Source: Crossaster papposus (lineage: Eukaryota; Echinodermata; Asteroidea; Velatida; Solasteridae). Taken from it: a DNA stretch of 64,000 bases. The DNA is taken from positions 868,001 to 932,000 of the forward strand of contig JBAIAA010000110.1 in NCBI GenBank assembly GCA_037893245.1. Reading direction: 5' to 3'. Below, in pieces: positions 777-54,318 of this stretch. Made by a program: the position numbers and the translations under genes. A model generated the notes under the pieces. It had not been told where the DNA came from. It was given only the letters and a program-made list of their open reading frames with translations, and did no database searches. Position 1 is the stretch's first letter. Each line of letters opens with the position of its first letter.

Positions 777-2763
777 GTAAGTGCTGCTTCCTGCATGTCT
801 ATAAGTATGCATGAAGTCATATCTGAGCAGACAACAATGTAACTATAAGTAGTAATTTCTTCTAGTTAACCAAACTACAAATTTCTGCGAAGAAAATGTC
901 TGCACTAACCCTGTATGAACACATGTATGAACATATTAAAGCCCCCACACAGGGCCTTTAAAGCATAAAATAAAAAATAGAAAACCAACAATATTTCTAA
1001 AACAGATTTTAAGATGCTGTTTGTCTTCTCTGGTTACTGTTTGCAAACGTTTATGATAAATTGTAGGTTTTGTCCTATAAGGTAAACTCTTTGCAATAAG
1101 ATAATTAAATATTTAAGTAGAGAAAACTAGAAGAAATAAATTATAGAAAATAAAATATGACGTGCCAACATTTTGCCTCGTTTACAACGTGAAGACCTGT
1201 CGTCTGCTCACAAACTATAGATTTGACGTAATCGATTGATTAGATGCATTCAAGTAAAAAACAGACCATGCATGCATAAAATTGAATCAGAAATTGAAGA
1301 AAAAAAAGGGACTATAGTTTAGCAGCACGTTGTACTTGCTCAAAGCTGTTGAATTCATCAGTAGCTTGTAAAGTCATCAATATTTTGTTCTGCCCAACAG
1401 AGGGCAGCATTCAGTATAACCACTAGTTGTCGAGTTGTCTGCTGAGGCAGTTTTTCACTGAACAATGTATGTACACATGGTACAGCATAGCACTTGATGA
1501 AGCTGTCACAGAATTATGACCATGAGTTTATCTCTGTCTGGGCCTGGCCAAGCATACAACGAGTTTATACAGGGACACTATTTCTTTGTTTGACAAAATC
1601 TGACCGAGTTGTGAGGACATTTTTGTGTCCCTATAACATTTTGGGTCTCCAGTTAAAGGTTCTAGAAGTAGAATTGGATTAGGGTATAATGTAATAAAAT
1701 AGAGAAGAAGACAAATTAGGGTGATGTTGAAAAATTTAGGTCAATTTTTTTTCAGAGTTTGAGTTAAGGTTTAGAGAGATTTTTCTCAAGCACACAATCC
1801 CCATAACGTCATGTACCGAAAGAATGTACATGTATGTTCTGACTTTAGTGACACACAGACAGTACTTTAGAAACGGTTTCGGTGAAGAGTTTTGTACAAA
1901 CTGAAAACCTTGAAGCCACCAGCGTACACATAACTTTCAATTATGGCACTTGGGGCTGAGGAAAAACAAAACTGTCTGCAACCAAAACAAAATTTATTGA
2001 CGAAACCTCAAAATCGAGCAAGTAAATTAATTACAACCAGGTCCTACTTCAGGTCATTTTGGTTTTTTTGTTTGTACAATCTTCAGTCCTAGCAAATAGC
2101 TGTGATGCACTGCTCATTCTGACTGCCTCAACCTACACTGTAGTCTTTGCAAATTGCCCAAATGGGGCGTGACCTTTTCATGCAAATTTGACCATTTGAA
2201 TAAAGACATTTTGAAGCCTGCATTGCATATCTAATTTGCATGCGCGTAGTACGTGTTGATAATCGCGCAGTTCTGCGATCGCCGATTGGCTCCCTTGAAA
2301 AGCCTGCTTAAAAATAAGAAACAAAATGTTAAACAGCTAGAAGCAATTTGTAAAGACGTATGCGTGAGCAGAGAAGCTGGTCTATAATCCTGTAGTTATA
2401 GTAGGGGGAAAATTGGGTGAAAAGAATACGCGACGTACACGATCGAACCATCGCATTCGTCTCTGGCATAAGAACAGCCTCAACCTTGAATGCATGGCAG
2501 GGCCATTAAGACAGATGAAGACAGTCATTTCTGAGCTCATTTCTCCTGCCAAATTAGCCCCAACGGGTTTGTCCCTACGGGCTTACAAGTGTAGCGTGTT
2601 ATTTCAGCATGCAGGCATTATGTTATTTTGTTTAAGAATTTGGTGAGCATTCTCATTGTGTGTATATGTGTATTGCTACAGTTAAAAATTAAAATTTGTT
2701 TGTCACTGCAATGTGAATTAATATATTTAAATTGTATTACTAAAATTTGCAGCTCAGCTGTTT

Positions 2764-2779
2764 GGGGAGGGGGGGGGGG
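2764..2779. repeat. Poly-G tract
   Basis: A run of G interrupted by a single A. It is the first of about sixteen G or C homopolymers in the window. Confidence 0.9.
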
Positions 2780-2865
2780 AGCGAAGGACCCGTTTTATAT
2801 TAAAACCAAAACAGGAATAGCAATCGATTTTTTTTCAATTGAAAAGCGATGCTGCTCATCCTTTG

Positions 2866-2956
2866 CATCTAGAGAAAAAAAACAAAGGGGAAAAGTACCC
2901 TAGAACCTTTTCATCTAGAGAAAAAAAAACAAAAAGGGGAAAAGTACCCTAGAACC
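2866..2956. repeat. Two-copy tandem duplication, about 45-base unit
   Basis: The unit beginning CATCTAGAGAAAAA and ending AAGTACCCTAGAACC occurs at 2866-2907 and again at 2912-2956. The copies differ only in A-run length. Near-identity suggests a recent local duplication. Confidence 0.9.
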
Positions 2957-5417
2957 GAATCAACCGAATATTTGAATAGCTTTTGCCGGTTTGAACATTT
3001 GAAAAGAAAAAAATATGCATGTGCTCACACGACTTTGATGTTATTTCAATCGTAGATATGATACTTTTTGGTAGCCAGTAACTTTGTTGTTGACACCTTG
3101 GTTCCATTCTTTTAGTTAGGTAAAGTCCCTTCACATGTACAGTAGCTACACTTGCTGAAAAACACTCCAGCAACCCATAATTAATATGCATGCAACTTTT
3201 GACCAATGAGGAAGGCAGCTGCAGCTGGAGTGTGTAAAACTTGATCGGCGAGTTTATAATATTTAGTCAAGTGCATTTTCCAATATTCGAATACTAAATT
3301 ATTTGAAAATTAACAGCCGTCTGCCAGTAGGCAATCACTCAAGAGGTATATTTTAGAATCTCCAGGGACTAAAATAATTCCTGTCAAACGTGAAATTCCA
3401 GAACAGGGAGATAGTTTTGTTTTTTTGGTATCAAAAAGTCTGTTTTCATTTGATCAGGCTGTCTGAATTTCAGTCGCTGTCTAGTATTTGTTCTACGATT
3501 CCCATCTTTTCTATTGAAGTCCACAGGGAAATTTGATATTCTTTGCAAGATTAAAGAGGATGGAAAGAGGTGTCTGTAACATGGGGCTTGGTGTTCCCAT
3601 GAGTCTAGGAAAAAAAGTTACATACATTTTTAAAGAGGAGTAGAAGGATGCAACAAGAATATGTTCCTGAGAAAAAAGACACTTGAGGACCCAGCGGCCG
3701 ATTACAAGAAATGCTGTAAGATACTTAGGAAGGGTTACTCGTCACAACTCATCGTAAGATCAATTTTACCAAATTTAAGATGCATTCAACACGTCCTAAC
3801 TTCCTTAGCAATGCGGCTGATCTCGTCTTTACCTTAAGATCGGTCCCAGGACCAAGTTATCGCATTGATGAGTGCGTTAATTTGTATATCGTCTAGAATC
3901 GCATTATCCTTCAGACGAATGTTGGCCTAGAGTTATAGTTTCCAGGAAGAAACAGATTTCTGATACTTGGGTATAGTTTTAATGACATAAATTATTTACA
4001 AAATTCAGTTATAAGCCATCAACTATATTCAACTCTACTGTATCTTGTGCTGCAAAATGTGCAGAACTATACTTTATGTTTGAAATTGATTGTAATTTTG
4101 AGGGTGAAAGTTCGTGTTCTATGCACGCACGCGCGGAACGTTGATTAATGCGTTACTTTTCAATGACTGTTTCATCAAGCGGTAAAAACAAATATGAAAC
4201 GGCCATCAAATAGGTAGTTTTTATGCATCTTTTTAATATGGGTTTTAGTGCAATCGATTTTTAGGACACATCTTAGTCAAGATTAATCGAGTGGGGACTC
4301 GTCTTAAGTTCTAAGATGAGTTGCAAGATAACATGACTCTTGTAGACATATTCTCTCGGCATATAAACTGCAATAAAATTGGTATCACTGAGCTGGATTG
4401 AAACTACAATTTGGCAAAGTATTATACATAGAGCCTACTCAAATTCCTATCTTCCAGAACAAACTCATATTGCACTCCCCTTTGAGTGACAGCTTGGTTT
4501 TCGTTTTCGACACGGTTTATTATACTTGATCTAATTTGGTGTTCAAAAGTACAAAATACGATGTCAGTCTACAAAAGACCCCTTTAGACAGTCCTTGTTG
4601 ATATAACACATATGGTTTACTTGCCCAGCAGCGCTCATAACGTTGAGTGCACACAACTTGTATCCTGTTTAATTTAAGTCTTTGTGATAGGATTACTGAA
4701 GAAATCTTGTACTTTATTTAAAAGCAAACATTCGCCCCTAACCCTGCTTCTGGAAAATTACGAAGTTTAAGTAGATTACATTATATCTGGTACAAATCTA
4801 ACAAATCTATATCAACACACAAAAAAACACATGATATTGCCTTAAAACTGTTATTATTATTATTATTTGCATTTAATTTCATTCATATTTATTTCCACTT
4901 AATAAAAATGAACAGAAAAGGATTGGGCAATTATTATAACAGATAAGATTAAGCGGTTTTGGACACGACCTAATTATTATGTTGAGCTATACTGGCCATT
5001 TTCTATGCTCATCGATTGAGTCAAGCCACAACCTCTAAAATATGTTCAAAGTAAAACCTTTTTTGCTATTGACAAGAATCAATGTTGCCATGGTTTTTAC
5101 TTAAATTCCAATTTATCGCCTATTTTAGAGTAATTTACTTGTAATTGGCATTGCTCGAATTCCGGTGCAGTAATTATGTTCACTTGAGAGGGAAGGTCAA
5201 GATGGATTTTTAATTTACTTTCTGCTGATACTTTCATTAAATTTGTGTAGTTTAGCAATTGTTGATTTTTTGATCTAGGTGAGCCAGCTAGACCCCAAAA
5301 TAAAGGGACCCAACAATATATCTTTGCATGTATGTGAAGCAATTGTTAAATTTCTTTTATCAAGAATTGTAGTATCGATTCAAGCACTAATTGTCGGCAA
5401 CTAACTTTATATACTAA

Positions 5418-5582
5418 GGGAATAAATGTGTGTTCGAGAGGTTTTAATCACTCTGTTTAATACCGCTTGGAGTCTGGGTGCTGATAATTACCCGAGCCGA
5501 AGGCGAGGGTAATTATCAGCACCCAGACTCCAAGCGGTATTAAACAGAGTGATTAATACCGACCGAACACACATTTATTCCC
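5418..5582. repeat. Long near-perfect palindrome H1 (76-base arms, 13-base loop)
   Basis: The left arm 5418-5493 is the reverse complement of 5507-5582 apart from a few mismatches near the outer end. The loop reads GAGCCGAAGGCGA. The outer ends read GGGAATAAATGTGTGTTCG and its complement. The palindrome sits directly beside an ATAAATACCT motif and forms the head of the element at 5587-6171. It has no coding potential. Confidence 0.95.
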
Positions 5583-5586
5583 ATTC

Positions 5587-6171
5587 ATAAATACCTTTTT
5601 TGTAAAATTCAGCCATAAAAGCCCCGAAAATCACGGAAAATTGTCCCAAGTAAATTTTGGTGTTTCGCCATTCTGTGTGTTTTCTCCTATCCATGTTCAC
5701 GGGCCACTGTCAAATGACATGTTTCCGCCTCTGTCGCTCTACGTCACAATACATGCAATAAAGCGTATTTACCATTGATCTCCATTATATAGACTGAATA
5801 GGCCTCCGCGTCTAAATGGCGTACGCGCGCGTGTTTTTTCAAAGGGAAAAGAACGAACGTGACGCGACCGCGTTTGTGCACGACTTATGGAATTTTTTTA
5901 AAAAGTGGAAGACTTGTTTTTTCTTAAATTCGTCATATTTGGAGGAAAACAGGATTTTCCACCCGAATGGTTCAAAATAGATAAGAACAATGGTCTGCGC
6001 AGCAGTGAAGTGCCCGGAGAAGGATGTCCATTGAGTTGTCCATGTGCAGAGGCCACTTTTGTTGCCAACTGGTTTTAAACACTTCTAGCCATGTCTTTAT
6101 CGTCCGTTTAATACCGGCCACGTGACGGGCTCTCGACCAATAGGAATGCCTAAACTGTCCCAGGTATTTAT
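5587..6171. mobile_element. Hairpin-headed element 1, body
   Basis: The body opens with ATAAATACCTTTTTT right after palindrome H1 and closes with AGGTATTTAT (6162-6171), the inverse of the opening motif. Near the closing end CACGTGAC (6119), CCAAT (6137) and AGGTATTTAT (6162) are placed exactly as in the element at 52.4-53.5 kb. No long open frame is present, so it is probably non-autonomous. The type is inferred from shared architecture; no transposase family is recognised. Confidence 0.6.
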
Positions 6172-6456
6172 GAATATCTATTAAAACACTCTGTGCTCTG
6201 CAACTGCAATCCCCATAACGAAAAACCAACAGATACCTGATAGAGAAATAAAAGCTAATGAAATTTGGGCCGCTGCTAATTCAATAATAGGTTTTACATG
6301 GTCTTGGTATCTGCCCAGTGATGGTAAAATCATTGCGCCACGCCTTGACCTTACAAAAGGGCATGTTTCAGTACACATGTTGTATTCCCTGTCCCCAATT
6401 AATGGGTACTCATCACTTTAAAAGCTTGCATACTCGTGAACTCTACCAACAAACAA

Positions 6457-42597: not shown

Positions 42598-42776
42598 GTT
42601 AAAAAAACCGCATGTCTCGGCGAGGTAAAATGAAATATCCAAACACGTTTTTTAAATGGACACTTGTTTAACAGTAGTTTCAGACACGTGTATTACAATG
42701 TAATACATTTAAAACACATTTGAAACGCGTGTTTGAATATTTCATTTTACCTCGTCAAGACACATTTTTTTTACTT
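42598..42776. mobile_element. Fold-back TIR element T8
   Basis: The left arm carries GTCTCGGCGAGGTAAAATGA, AATATCCAAACACG. The right arm carries the inverse, CGTGTTTGAATATTTCATTT, TACCTCGTCAAGAC. Both outer ends are T/A runs (TTAAAAAAACC, TTTTTTTTACTTATTAA). The arms are about 55-60 bases and the centre is AT-rich. Confidence 0.85.
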
Positions 42777-50575: not shown

Positions 50576-52259
50576 TTCCGGGTCTGCTAAAAAGCCTGGG
50601 TATATCACCTCAAATTGATAAATTAAGCCTACTGCCCATGTGGACAAGAAAAATATATGCCTTAATTTCTATAACATGCAACACATCATACTCTAGCCGT
50701 GTGCGTCATACGCAATTGTACGTATATATGCCAGACTTTTCCATGCTTATACCCTAACGATTCTATTATCCAGCCAAACTACAACACAAGGGTTTGGTAG
50801 AGTCCAGCTGTTTAGTGCACAGTTTAACAGCACAGGGTGTTGGGATTTGCAAGGATGAGGATGAGGTTCCTAGTACATCACCAAAAGGAGTTAGGGTTAA
50901 TGATCACCACAACACAAGTATTTTTGAAACTTAAAAGTATTTTTGAAAATAAATATGAAACTTGTTCAACATGCTCCCGATCATTCCAAATGCTTTTGTT
51001 CCTCTTGCTGTGGTTAATTAGTTGTCAATAGTACATGTACATGTACTGTATGTATCATTTATCCCCTGTACAGTGTTTTGTATATGATCCCATACTAGGA
51101 TAGTGTGAACTTTGTTGTATTTCATAGTTGCAGATGCACCTGTTAGCTCTGCGGTATTATCACTATTTGAATAAAATCATTCTTTGCATCACTGATGAGA
51201 CTACAAGCTAGTTGGTAGAGGCAGGTGGTGATGAGTTCCCTTTAATGGTATCTGGTGTCAATGCAACAGATGTAAGTGTCAAGCGTGACGAGGCAGAGAT
51301 CCGTCAACCATGCCTGATGAACAGTTGAGCAGATGCTAGAGTCTTCAGCCTTGAGGGATTTGTTTGGGGGAGGACCTTAAATCCACAATAGACTAGTTGT
51401 GGAAGTGGCTGTTGCCTAGTGGTCTGGAGCATTGAATTCGTGCTGGGGATGGGCTAGGAGACTAAGTTACACATGTAATATGGGTAGAGGCCTTGCTGTG
51501 GAATAGTTACCCATCCCAACTCTATCCGTGCTGTGTAGAGATATCAGAATGTCTTGTTTCAGTGTGAGGGGCTGGTTCTTCCACACATTCCTCTAGTAGC
51601 CCACACCTTGAGTGGCCTTTTTCCTTGTGATTGGCAATTTGCATAATAAAAAGAGACCAGTTTCTTAATAAATTATAAATATTCATGCATGGCAAGAAGC
51701 GAAATCCGCCGGCCCATTAAAAATGTACAGGGTTCCGAAGTTGTTTGTCATTTTCTCTCAATTTCTCCAGGACTTGTCCCATTTGTCTTTGGGGAAAGTC
51801 CCTGAAATGTTCATCTAGGTATACTTTCTGGTCTGTGTTTTTTAAGGGGGACAAAATAAAAACTATACAATTTTGTTTTTGTCTTGTACACACAAGGTTG
51901 AGCAAAATCAGCAGGGCTCATTTCTAGAATAACTGACTTTTACGGGGTACCATCCACTGCACTGCAGGCAGACGAGTGGGCCTTGCATCGCGACGTGAAT
52001 CATATTGGTTTGTGCCAATGCAAGCTGTGATTCGCGCTTTCATTCAGTGCCTGGTGCTGAGAAGAAAATTACCTGGGAACAAGACAAGATGACTTTATTT
52101 CATATGAATATTTTAACAGTTACTGTACCTGTTTTGTCTAATTGAAGTGGCCTCCAATATCAGAAAAGATGTAATCTATTTTATTGTGTTGGTAGCAAGT
52201 ATTAATGCATCAGATGGTATATTTTATTGTAATAATGATTGCTAGTAAGTGTTTTAAAT

Positions 52260-52426
52260 AGGTAATAACAGTGCGAGAACCCGGTTGTTACTGCGTGGTA
52301 ATGACCGGGTTGGGGGATGACCGCTGGTAATGGATCGAGCCGAAGGCGAGGTCCATTACCAGCGGTCATCCCCCAACCCGGTCATTACCACGCAGTAACA
52401 ACCGGGTTCTCGCACTGTTATTACCT
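52260..52426. repeat. Long perfect palindrome H2 (75-base arms, 17-base loop)
   Basis: The left arm 52260-52334 starts AGGTAATAACAGTGCGAGAA and is the reverse complement of 52352-52426. The loop reads TCGAGCCGAAGGCGAGG, sharing the GAGCCGAAGGCGAGG core with H1, while the arms have no evident sequence match with H1. The arms contain the direct subrepeat GGTAAT(A/G) at intervals. Confidence 0.95.
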
Positions 52427-52429
52427 TTA

Positions 52430-53479
52430 ATAAATACCTTTTTAACGAGAAAAATGGTGAAAATACTCCGAATTTCGCGACTTCGCGGCTTCTTTTACGC
52501 CGTTTTACAAACGCAGCTTCGTTTTCGTATTTTGGCTTTTTTCATGTAGTTTAGCAGTGGTACAGTTGTTTTCCTAGTTCCGGATTTTTTCTAGTTCCAG
52601 ATCGCTTCAAATAAAAACCTACCTTGTTATGGCTTGGTCTCCAATACTATTTGTTTAGATGAAGTGCATTTGGAAAAGAAACATACAAGCTTCTTGATAC
52701 ATAAGTAAAAATAAGTCGAAGTAAAAGTCTCAAATCTGCCAAAGACTGAACGTTCATTTTTTTTTCTAGTTCCGGATCGCCCGTAAAATACATGCATCAA
52801 CAGCACGCGCGCAAGCGATTTCATATGACGTGTTCTAATGGACCATGGAGAAATGTCTCCATGGTGGGACAAAGTTTATCGGATCGTTGCCGCGCGCAAC
52901 ACACGTACACGGACAAAACATTTCAAAGCATTTCTTTGCAAGTCCTTTTTTTTAAACTTTATTGGAAGTTAAAGTATTTGACATTTATTTTAAACTGTAT
53001 TTATATAAATTAATGAAAACTTTATCAGAAATATAGGCTTGATTCGGGTTGGTTCTAGCGTGATAATTGTTCATGTACGTACATGTACGAAGCAGTTTTT
53101 TTACTCGATCCGCGGGAATTGGTTAAGGCTGATCCACAACTAGAAAAAGGGATGTCGGTATATTTGACGTCGTACAGTATGTATTTTAAAATAAAGAAGA
53201 GCATAAATATCGAAACAAAAACTGTAGTTTCTCCATCACTCAAGGTAAACTACTAAACCTATTTCATTTAAATTTCGAGGATTAGACTTGCCGAAAACAG
53301 CCTGAATATTTTTTGCGATCCGGAACTAGGACTAACGTCTGTAAATGTGGCCAGAGTGCAGCCCAAAGCCGGGGTTTAGAAAACGGCCCTTGGAAAACCC
53401 ATGATGTTACTACATATAATGACCGGCACGTGATCGAGTCTCGGCCAATCAGAAGCCTTCAACTCTCCTAGGTATTTAT
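52430..53479. mobile_element. Hairpin-headed element 2, body
   Basis: It opens ATAAATACCTTTTT and closes CACGTGAT (53427), CCAAT (53445), AGGTATTTAT (53470), the same spacing as element 1. Within it CTAGTTCCGGAT(CGC) occurs at 52574, 52591 (one change) and 52766, and inverted at 53315-53329. Short open frames (up to about 80 residues) show no family resemblance, so it looks non-coding. Confidence 0.6.
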
Positions 53480-54318
53480 TAAAAATCTATAAATGAACCA
53501 TTGAAAAATACAACAACAAAACAATTGCTGTAGTTTTTATTTATTCATTACATTTTGTTATCCAAACAGTGTAAGGTTAGTTTTCATTGGGGTCCTACTT
53601 CCATTGGGAAAATTAAAATCCACAAAGAGTGTGCTGGTCTGTTATGATTATAAACATTAATAATTGAACATGAATATTTACACAAATAAAAAAATACTTA
53701 TACACAAACAGAAGAATACTTTGATGTTTGCCCAGTATATCTCCCTGTTCTATTTCTGTATTAGGCCTATTGACATTTCGATTTCTAGCCTGCCGGCAAA
53801 GCTGCATCGAAATACAATATCGACCTAAACCTTTCAAAACAAATGCGCAGGCATGCGCTAGTATACACTTCCCTCCAGATTAATGATAAACTATTGAATT
53901 CTAGCTGCTGCAACGTGTGTGCACTGTTGTTAAAGTAAGTTATAGTTCATGTGTCCAGCGAGACATGTTATTCAAATGTTTTTGACCCTTCTTCAACTTT
54001 TCACAGTTTCTAGGAATTTTAAAAGGGGACTTCAGTCCAAACTATAATTTGTGTTTGTAATCATATCTTTTATACATTCTCGCTGATGAAGTCCTTTTTA
54101 ATATTAAAAGGACAAGCAGTTAAACAAATTTTGTAAAATTCTCACAAATCTTTCTGTCGCATGCTGCTTTTGCAAATCCAGTGATATTTTTGTCACAGTC
54201 GTGATAATTGAAGATAGTTAACAGAATGAGGACTTGATTTATTCTTCCCTACATTCGCAGAAAATTGTGACAAGTGATCGAGAAATTTGTACTCTCAAAC
54301 CTTTTTGCCTCCAACCCC

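Follow-up and report, generated by a model that had tools for sequence, protein, structure and literature searches.

The window analysed here, a 64,000-nucleotide stretch of the Crossaster papposus genome, contains two elements headed by long hairpins that share a loop. This raises the question of what kind of element carries such a hairpin, and whether its arms are inherited from copy to copy or, as a preliminary description of the locus proposed, made independently in each copy. The element at 52 kb is termed B and its sister at 5.4 kb is termed A, with features located in the window as follows.

5416 to 6174, minus strand: element A, sister copy in the window, with T flanks at 5415 and 6175
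5418 to 5493 and 5507 to 5582: hairpin arms of element A, 76 bases with 4 mismatches
5584 to 5596: inner repeat of element A
6162 to 6174: terminal repeat of element A
52258, no strand: left copy of the one-base flank X, here A, with the same base at 53483 after element B
52259 to 53482, minus strand: element B, window copy, 1,224 bp, delimited by comparison of B copies and the empty site of locus L014
52260 to 52334, plus strand: left hairpin arm of element B, 75 bases, perfect complementarity
52335 to 52351, plus strand: loop TCGAGCCGAAGGCGAGG with apex GCC-GAA-GGC, from its sequence, the window loop matches and the predicted fold
52352 to 52426, plus strand: right hairpin arm, perfectly complementary to the left arm
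52427 to 52439, plus strand: inner (subterminal) inverted repeat of element B, TTAATAAATACCT
53417 to 53482, minus strand: end region of element B conserved with element A, by local alignment
53470 to 53482, plus strand: terminal inverted repeat at the far end of element B, AGGTATTTATTAA

The hairpin-headed element originally placed at 52260 to 53479 is present, with its ends corrected to 52259 and 53482 and one A on each side. Inverted-repeat comparison paired 75 of 75 bases between the arms around the 17-base loop. The hairpin extends to 77-base arms with a single mismatch, T.G, next to the loop, and an inverted-repeat scan of the window returned arms of 93 nt at 91 % identity. Folded as single-stranded DNA, the hairpin region reached −106.5 kcal/mol, whereas 200 shuffled sequences averaged −25.65 (sd 3.38; z −23.9) and none of them folded as low; the perfect arms around TCGAGCCGAAGGCGAGG are thus real and far beyond chance. 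The same 15-base loop core is found at 5494, and ATAAATACCT comes after both hairpins, in agreement with the shared loop and conserved adjoining sequence first described. The GCC-GAA-GGC tip and its flanking GA steps are presumably unusually stable DNA turns. An unrelated inverted repeat with 46-nt arms at 87 % identity and a 58-nt spacer lies at 42613–42762.

Both elements carry 13 bp inverted repeats that are perfect and asymmetrically placed, the outer one at the terminus and the other further in, with the hairpin beyond it. If the element is Helitron2-like, the 5′ end of element B would be at 53482 and the 3′ (hairpin) end at 52259. A coding element was rejected, as element B has no long ORF (longest stop-to-stop frame, 87 aa) and in the copy at locus L040, the longest among the 28 whose ends were delimited, frames do not exceed 156 aa. 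The length of this A copy is due to another nested insertion, an inverted-ended element (TAGCCTTGGTCAAGGCG ... CGCCTTGACCAAGGCTA) at 2,598–4,013 of the locus, within the inner repeat. CACGTG and CCAAT motifs, which are promoter-like, are conserved at the non-hairpin end in both subfamilies (6109–6174 and 53417–53482 in the window).

The 15-base loop core had 2,848 exact matches (1,666 and 1,182 by strand) in the 1.02-Gb genome, against one match for the same sequence read backwards. Exact matches to inner sequences numbered 1,602 for A (31-mer) and 506 for B (35-mer). Forty loci were fetched, covering places 1 to 41 in a list of 100 out of the 2,848, a non-random sample from low-numbered contigs; with the window they provided 43 loops, among which L043, L045, L046 and L048 are apparent duplicates of one another. 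These sorted into 21 of subfamily A (the 5.4-kb type), 21 of subfamily B (the 52-kb type) and one belonging to neither, and 25 of the 43 retained ungapped arms of at least 61 bases.

Within subfamilies, both whole arms aligned without gaps, and with no more than eight differences in either of them, in 14 of the 21 A copies and 10 of the 21 B copies, the remainder being truncated, shifted by indels or lacking one arm. Global alignment of the A and B arm consensus sequences gave 48 identical columns of 80 and a score of 11, while 2,000 shuffles had a mean of −12.3 (sd 4.4) and a maximum of 6. The non-hairpin ends of A and B also align locally. This indicates that the two window hairpins belong to one family and that, as judged from these alignments, their arms are divergent homologues that have diverged by approximately 40 % while remaining paired. 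The view that the two hairpins have unrelated arm sequences was therefore not borne out. Comparison of arms across the 43 loops, 42 of which fall in the two subfamilies, likewise went against independent regeneration, since arms align within A, within B and between A and B. The occurrence of arm-to-arm transfer and loop inversion (see below) is in keeping with arms being made afresh in every copy, but that model is refuted by these alignments and retains next to no probability. What stands from it is that loop and pairing are kept while arm sequence varies. A viral or prokaryotic origin of the loop was also rejected: a 16-mer of the loop was present in 69 IMG/VR stretches, yet the complementary arms there were at most 5 bases (75 occurrences), so that these look like chance matches.

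Evidence for exchange between arms was found in counts of arm states. The typical A copy (most of those aligned) has AGA in the left arm where the right arm would call for GTC. This AGA/GTC state had 1,265 genome matches with both arms counted jointly, a number that probably includes a tandem array. The GTC/GTC state had 258 strand matches, equivalent to about 130 hairpins because such a hairpin matches both strands, and AGA/AGA had 26 strand matches in 14 hairpins; the fourth state, almost identical to the first when reverse-complemented, did not enter the comparison. As both homogenised states exist, at least one requires that a block was copied between arms, whichever state is oldest. Moreover, the loop was inverted relative to the arms in 16 hairpins genome-wide, three of them within 5 kb on one contig that may represent one event, and two further inverted loops with altered letters lie outside these 16.

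A permutation test on the 14 A and 10 B copies with at most eight differences per arm detected an excess of identical changes on both arms for A (3 observed, 0.50 expected; p=0.025) and for B (3 observed, 0.60 expected; p=0.013). At positions where the consensus arms mismatch, agreement between arms showed no excess in A (9 versus 8.4 expected, p=0.78) and was raised in B (20 versus 11.6 expected, p=0.008), although the latter may only reflect two B sub-lineages. The T.G mismatch beside the loop was kept in 20 of 21 B copies, indicating that arm correction is not universal. In the accessible part of PMC8604942, template switching between inverted repeats is described as producing homogenised arms and inverted spacers. 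The arm exchange seen here is as expected of fold-back template switching, with a modest statistical signal in the local test. The template switching invoked previously holds in part, for local exchange between arms and loop inversion and not for fresh arms in every copy.

Insertion sites were characterized from empty paralogues and from flanks. The search for empty sites gave a spanning match, among those listed, for 3 of 12 constructs, after scoring of 40 out of 7,831 candidates. Insertion was precise, and at most one base was duplicated (seven of seven fetched paralogues for L040, four of four for L019 and one for L014). All 15 A copies had T as the flanking base X at either side; among 13 B copies, the left and right X were identical in 12. 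The target was analysed for the 28 of 43 loops for which both ends were found. A left half-site (T in 20/28 at X−4, T in 24/28 at X−3 and A in 27/28 at X−2) and a right half-site (T in 25/28 at X+7, A in 20/28 at X+8 and A in 19/28 at X+9) were apparent, with p values of 1.6e-11 to 5e-3 after correction for 45 positions and 4 bases. Together these form a dyad, TTA-N8-TAA, with 56 of 84 complementary cells in one register and at most 34 in 14 other registers, the motif having been noticed on the same 28 sites used for its test. TA-N8-TA occurred in 17 of 28 targets compared with 165 of 26,320 control windows. Both subfamilies contributed, with A at X−2 and T at X+7 in 14/15 and 14/15 for A and in 13/13 and 11/13 for B; A at X+8 was clear in B (11/13) and weak in A (9/15). 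The insertion point, between X and X+1, is off the centre of the dyad. In L040 and L019 the occupied copy has the motif base T (at X+7 and X−3, respectively) whereas G occupies that position in the fetched empty paralogues (7/7 and 4/4), reflecting either choice of a variant copy or change upon insertion.

An AT-rich palindromic target and 13-bp inverted repeats would also suit a DDE-type inverted-repeat transposon (MITE) that captured a palindrome, or made one itself, at one end. However, no duplication of two or more bases was present at the three empty-site families and head-to-tail junctions are precise, so this explanation is largely refuted and is considered very improbable.

These junctions were frequent for subfamily A, with 582 exact head-to-tail matches genome-wide (573 and 9 by strand). 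The 100 listed all had zero spacing; 13 were dispersed and 87 were located in contig C783. The B junction had 20 matches (11 and 9 by strand) spread over 18 contigs, including a pair separated by 1,204 bp, and in the 13 for which letters were shown X was T in eight, A in two and absent in three. In the predicted fold of the joined ends, for A and B alike, the outer repeat, hairpin and inner repeat merge into one palindrome with arms of approximately 90 bp, interrupted at the cut point by a 2-nt bulge. The joined ends also have TTA (B) or TGA (A) at X−4 and TAA at X+8; this TTA-N9-TAA motif is a near copy of the target dyad with one more base between the half-sites. Head-to-tail pairs could alternatively arise from insertion at the element's own, target-like end.

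This combination of target and joined ends permits a second explanation, in which TTA-N8-TAA of the target and TTA-N9-TAA of the joined ends are both bound by a recombinase dimer of the tyrosine or serine type, with strand exchange at X and the hairpin serving as a folded single-stranded recombination site, much as attC does in integrons. The target dyad, the half-sites in the joined ends and the matched X in both subfamilies argue for such a cassette. Against it, the crossover shares only one base and Helitron2 already accounts for asymmetric repeats and a terminal hairpin without extra assumptions; a recombinase cassette is a minority reading, at perhaps one chance in several. Unpaired bases play a role in recombination of integron attC sites. 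In the accessible parts of PMC2727003, PMC3053210 and PMC11641012, attC sites are likewise palindromic, show little sequence conservation and recombine as folded hairpins of one strand; they are bacterial, unlike the present element, and use a tyrosine recombinase. A broader proposal, for any enzyme, is that the joined ends of this animal element act as a giant folded recombination site, a eukaryotic counterpart of attC, with strand exchange at one matched base beside the 2-nt bulge, dyad half-sites common to target and joined ends, arms of ~90 bp and fold-back copying that keeps the arms alike. It is tentative and regarded as about as doubtful as the recombinase cassette itself.

The element is probably a non-autonomous Helitron2/Helentron (HINE) rolling-circle element whose 3′ hairpin is oversized. 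An enzyme of the Rep type, provided in trans, would nick X|(T/A)AGG at the hairpin foot, and circles or concatemers in which the ends are joined would arise. The joined ends would then refold into the palindrome with ~90-bp arms, the 2-nt bulge at the nick marking the site of cutting and rejoining. Fold-back synthesis on single-stranded intermediates would keep the arms alike, so that they drift together and the loop, hairpin foot and repeats stay. The arrangement of repeats and hairpin agrees with that published for Helitron2/HINE (available portions of PMC3627910, PMC4067079 and PMC7492417), and Helraiser forms circles with precise junctions and uses its hairpin as a terminator (PMC5876387, in the portion available). 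This layout and the Helraiser precedent favour an HUH Rep acting in trans.

Comparison with described elements was limited to the accessible text of each source. HINE, DINE-1, Cg_HINE and the present element are all non-coding, with an inverted repeat at one end and, at the opposite end, a palindrome preceded by an inner repeat (PMC4067079, PMC7492417). HINEs are further described as having a T-rich target, no target duplication and, like the present element, tandem repeats (PMC4067079, PMC7492417); here at most one base is duplicated and the target is AT-rich with a dyad. In mite HINEs the palindrome is 5–10 bp and the inner repeat lies 38–60 bp from the end, compared with arms of 76–77 bp and a distance of ~168 bp here; the dyad target and matched X are further differences from HINEs. 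Helitron2, including Fusarium FoHeli1/2, has asymmetric 8–15-bp repeats with the outer one 0–2 bp from the end and the inner one beside the hairpin (PMC3627910, PMC5148889). Helitron2/Helentron-HINE elements have their outer repeat at or within 0–4 nt of the 5′ terminus and their inner repeat directly before a 3′ hairpin; here the outer repeat is at the terminus and the inner one likewise adjoins the hairpin. Joined ends are reported for FoHeli1, whose 5′ hairpin tip, CAGCC-GAA-GGCTG, resembles the loop apex found here (PMC3627910, PMC5148889). Unlike Helitron2, no 5′ hairpin was seen: the first 63 nt gave z scores of 0.97 (A) and −0.38 (B), with 179 and 61 of 200 shuffles folding at least as well. 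The 3′ hairpin is several times longer than in Helitron2, and the FoHeli1/2 target is TNAT|A or T rather than TTA-N8-TAA. Helitron1 was rejected, as it needs 5′-TC, CTRR-3′ and insertion between A and T, and the ends here are TTCAT/TTAAT and CCTT/CCTA with TTA-N8-TAA as target.

Helitron Rep domains (PF14214) are abundant in the genome, with the best 150 of 273 candidates scored and all above the cut-off. Among the matches listed, a Rep lay within 30 kb of an exact B loop in 0 of 36 cases and within 60 kb of an A loop in 0 of 11. As no autonomous partner was found for the family, judged by Rep proximity to the listed exact inner matches, the enzyme, either an HUH Rep or another recombinase, is only inferred, as are the processed strand and the circle; the partner Rep, in comparison with Helitron2, is putative. 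The symmetric target with matched X, which is like that of site-specific recombination, and the lack of a Rep near the listed loops fit the Helitron reading poorly. In the accessible portions of the Helitron papers cited, descriptions contain no symmetric target with a matched base. On contigs C198 and C636, three Rep matches occur in mirrored order with similar spacing, probably as two haplotypes of one region, and the assembly may therefore contain both haplotypes.

The kind of element, Helitron2/HINE, is known; the size of the hairpin, the bulged palindrome of the joined ends, the dyad target and the arm exchange are new. In literature outside subscription papers and Repbase, neither the loop 15-mer nor a 14-base part of its reverse complement was matched in the text, and no HINE/Helentron paper was found that mentions a 'long palindrome'. 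The thousands of copies provide a natural experiment on how rolling-circle hairpins mark the cut site, and genome-wide counts of homogenised arms and inverted loops can serve as a measure of arm maintenance in long palindromes. Helitron targets are short and one-sided in the sources as far as accessible, and a dyad target with a matched base differs from them in a concrete way that can be tested.

Tandem copies of the type in C783 also make the conversion of a transposon into a satellite array open to study. This head-to-tail array of A, a transposon turned satellite, extends from ~24,036 to at least 75,364 on the contig, with mostly 584-bp spacing and at least 87 junctions. The plus strand carries all of the 482 junctions beyond those listed; an array of several hundred units is thus probable, and this size would explain the strand bias in the loop-core, A 31-mer and AGA/GTC counts. 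Growth of the array could alternatively have proceeded via unequal exchange. A search for Helitron tandem arrays in the literature, judged by titles, found nothing on point. At locus L030, a separate tandem array of 23-bp units with CACCTTTAATACTACCGTAA (37 exact cores) adjoins a B copy, running on the reverse strand from 3,479, ~1 kb past the loop.
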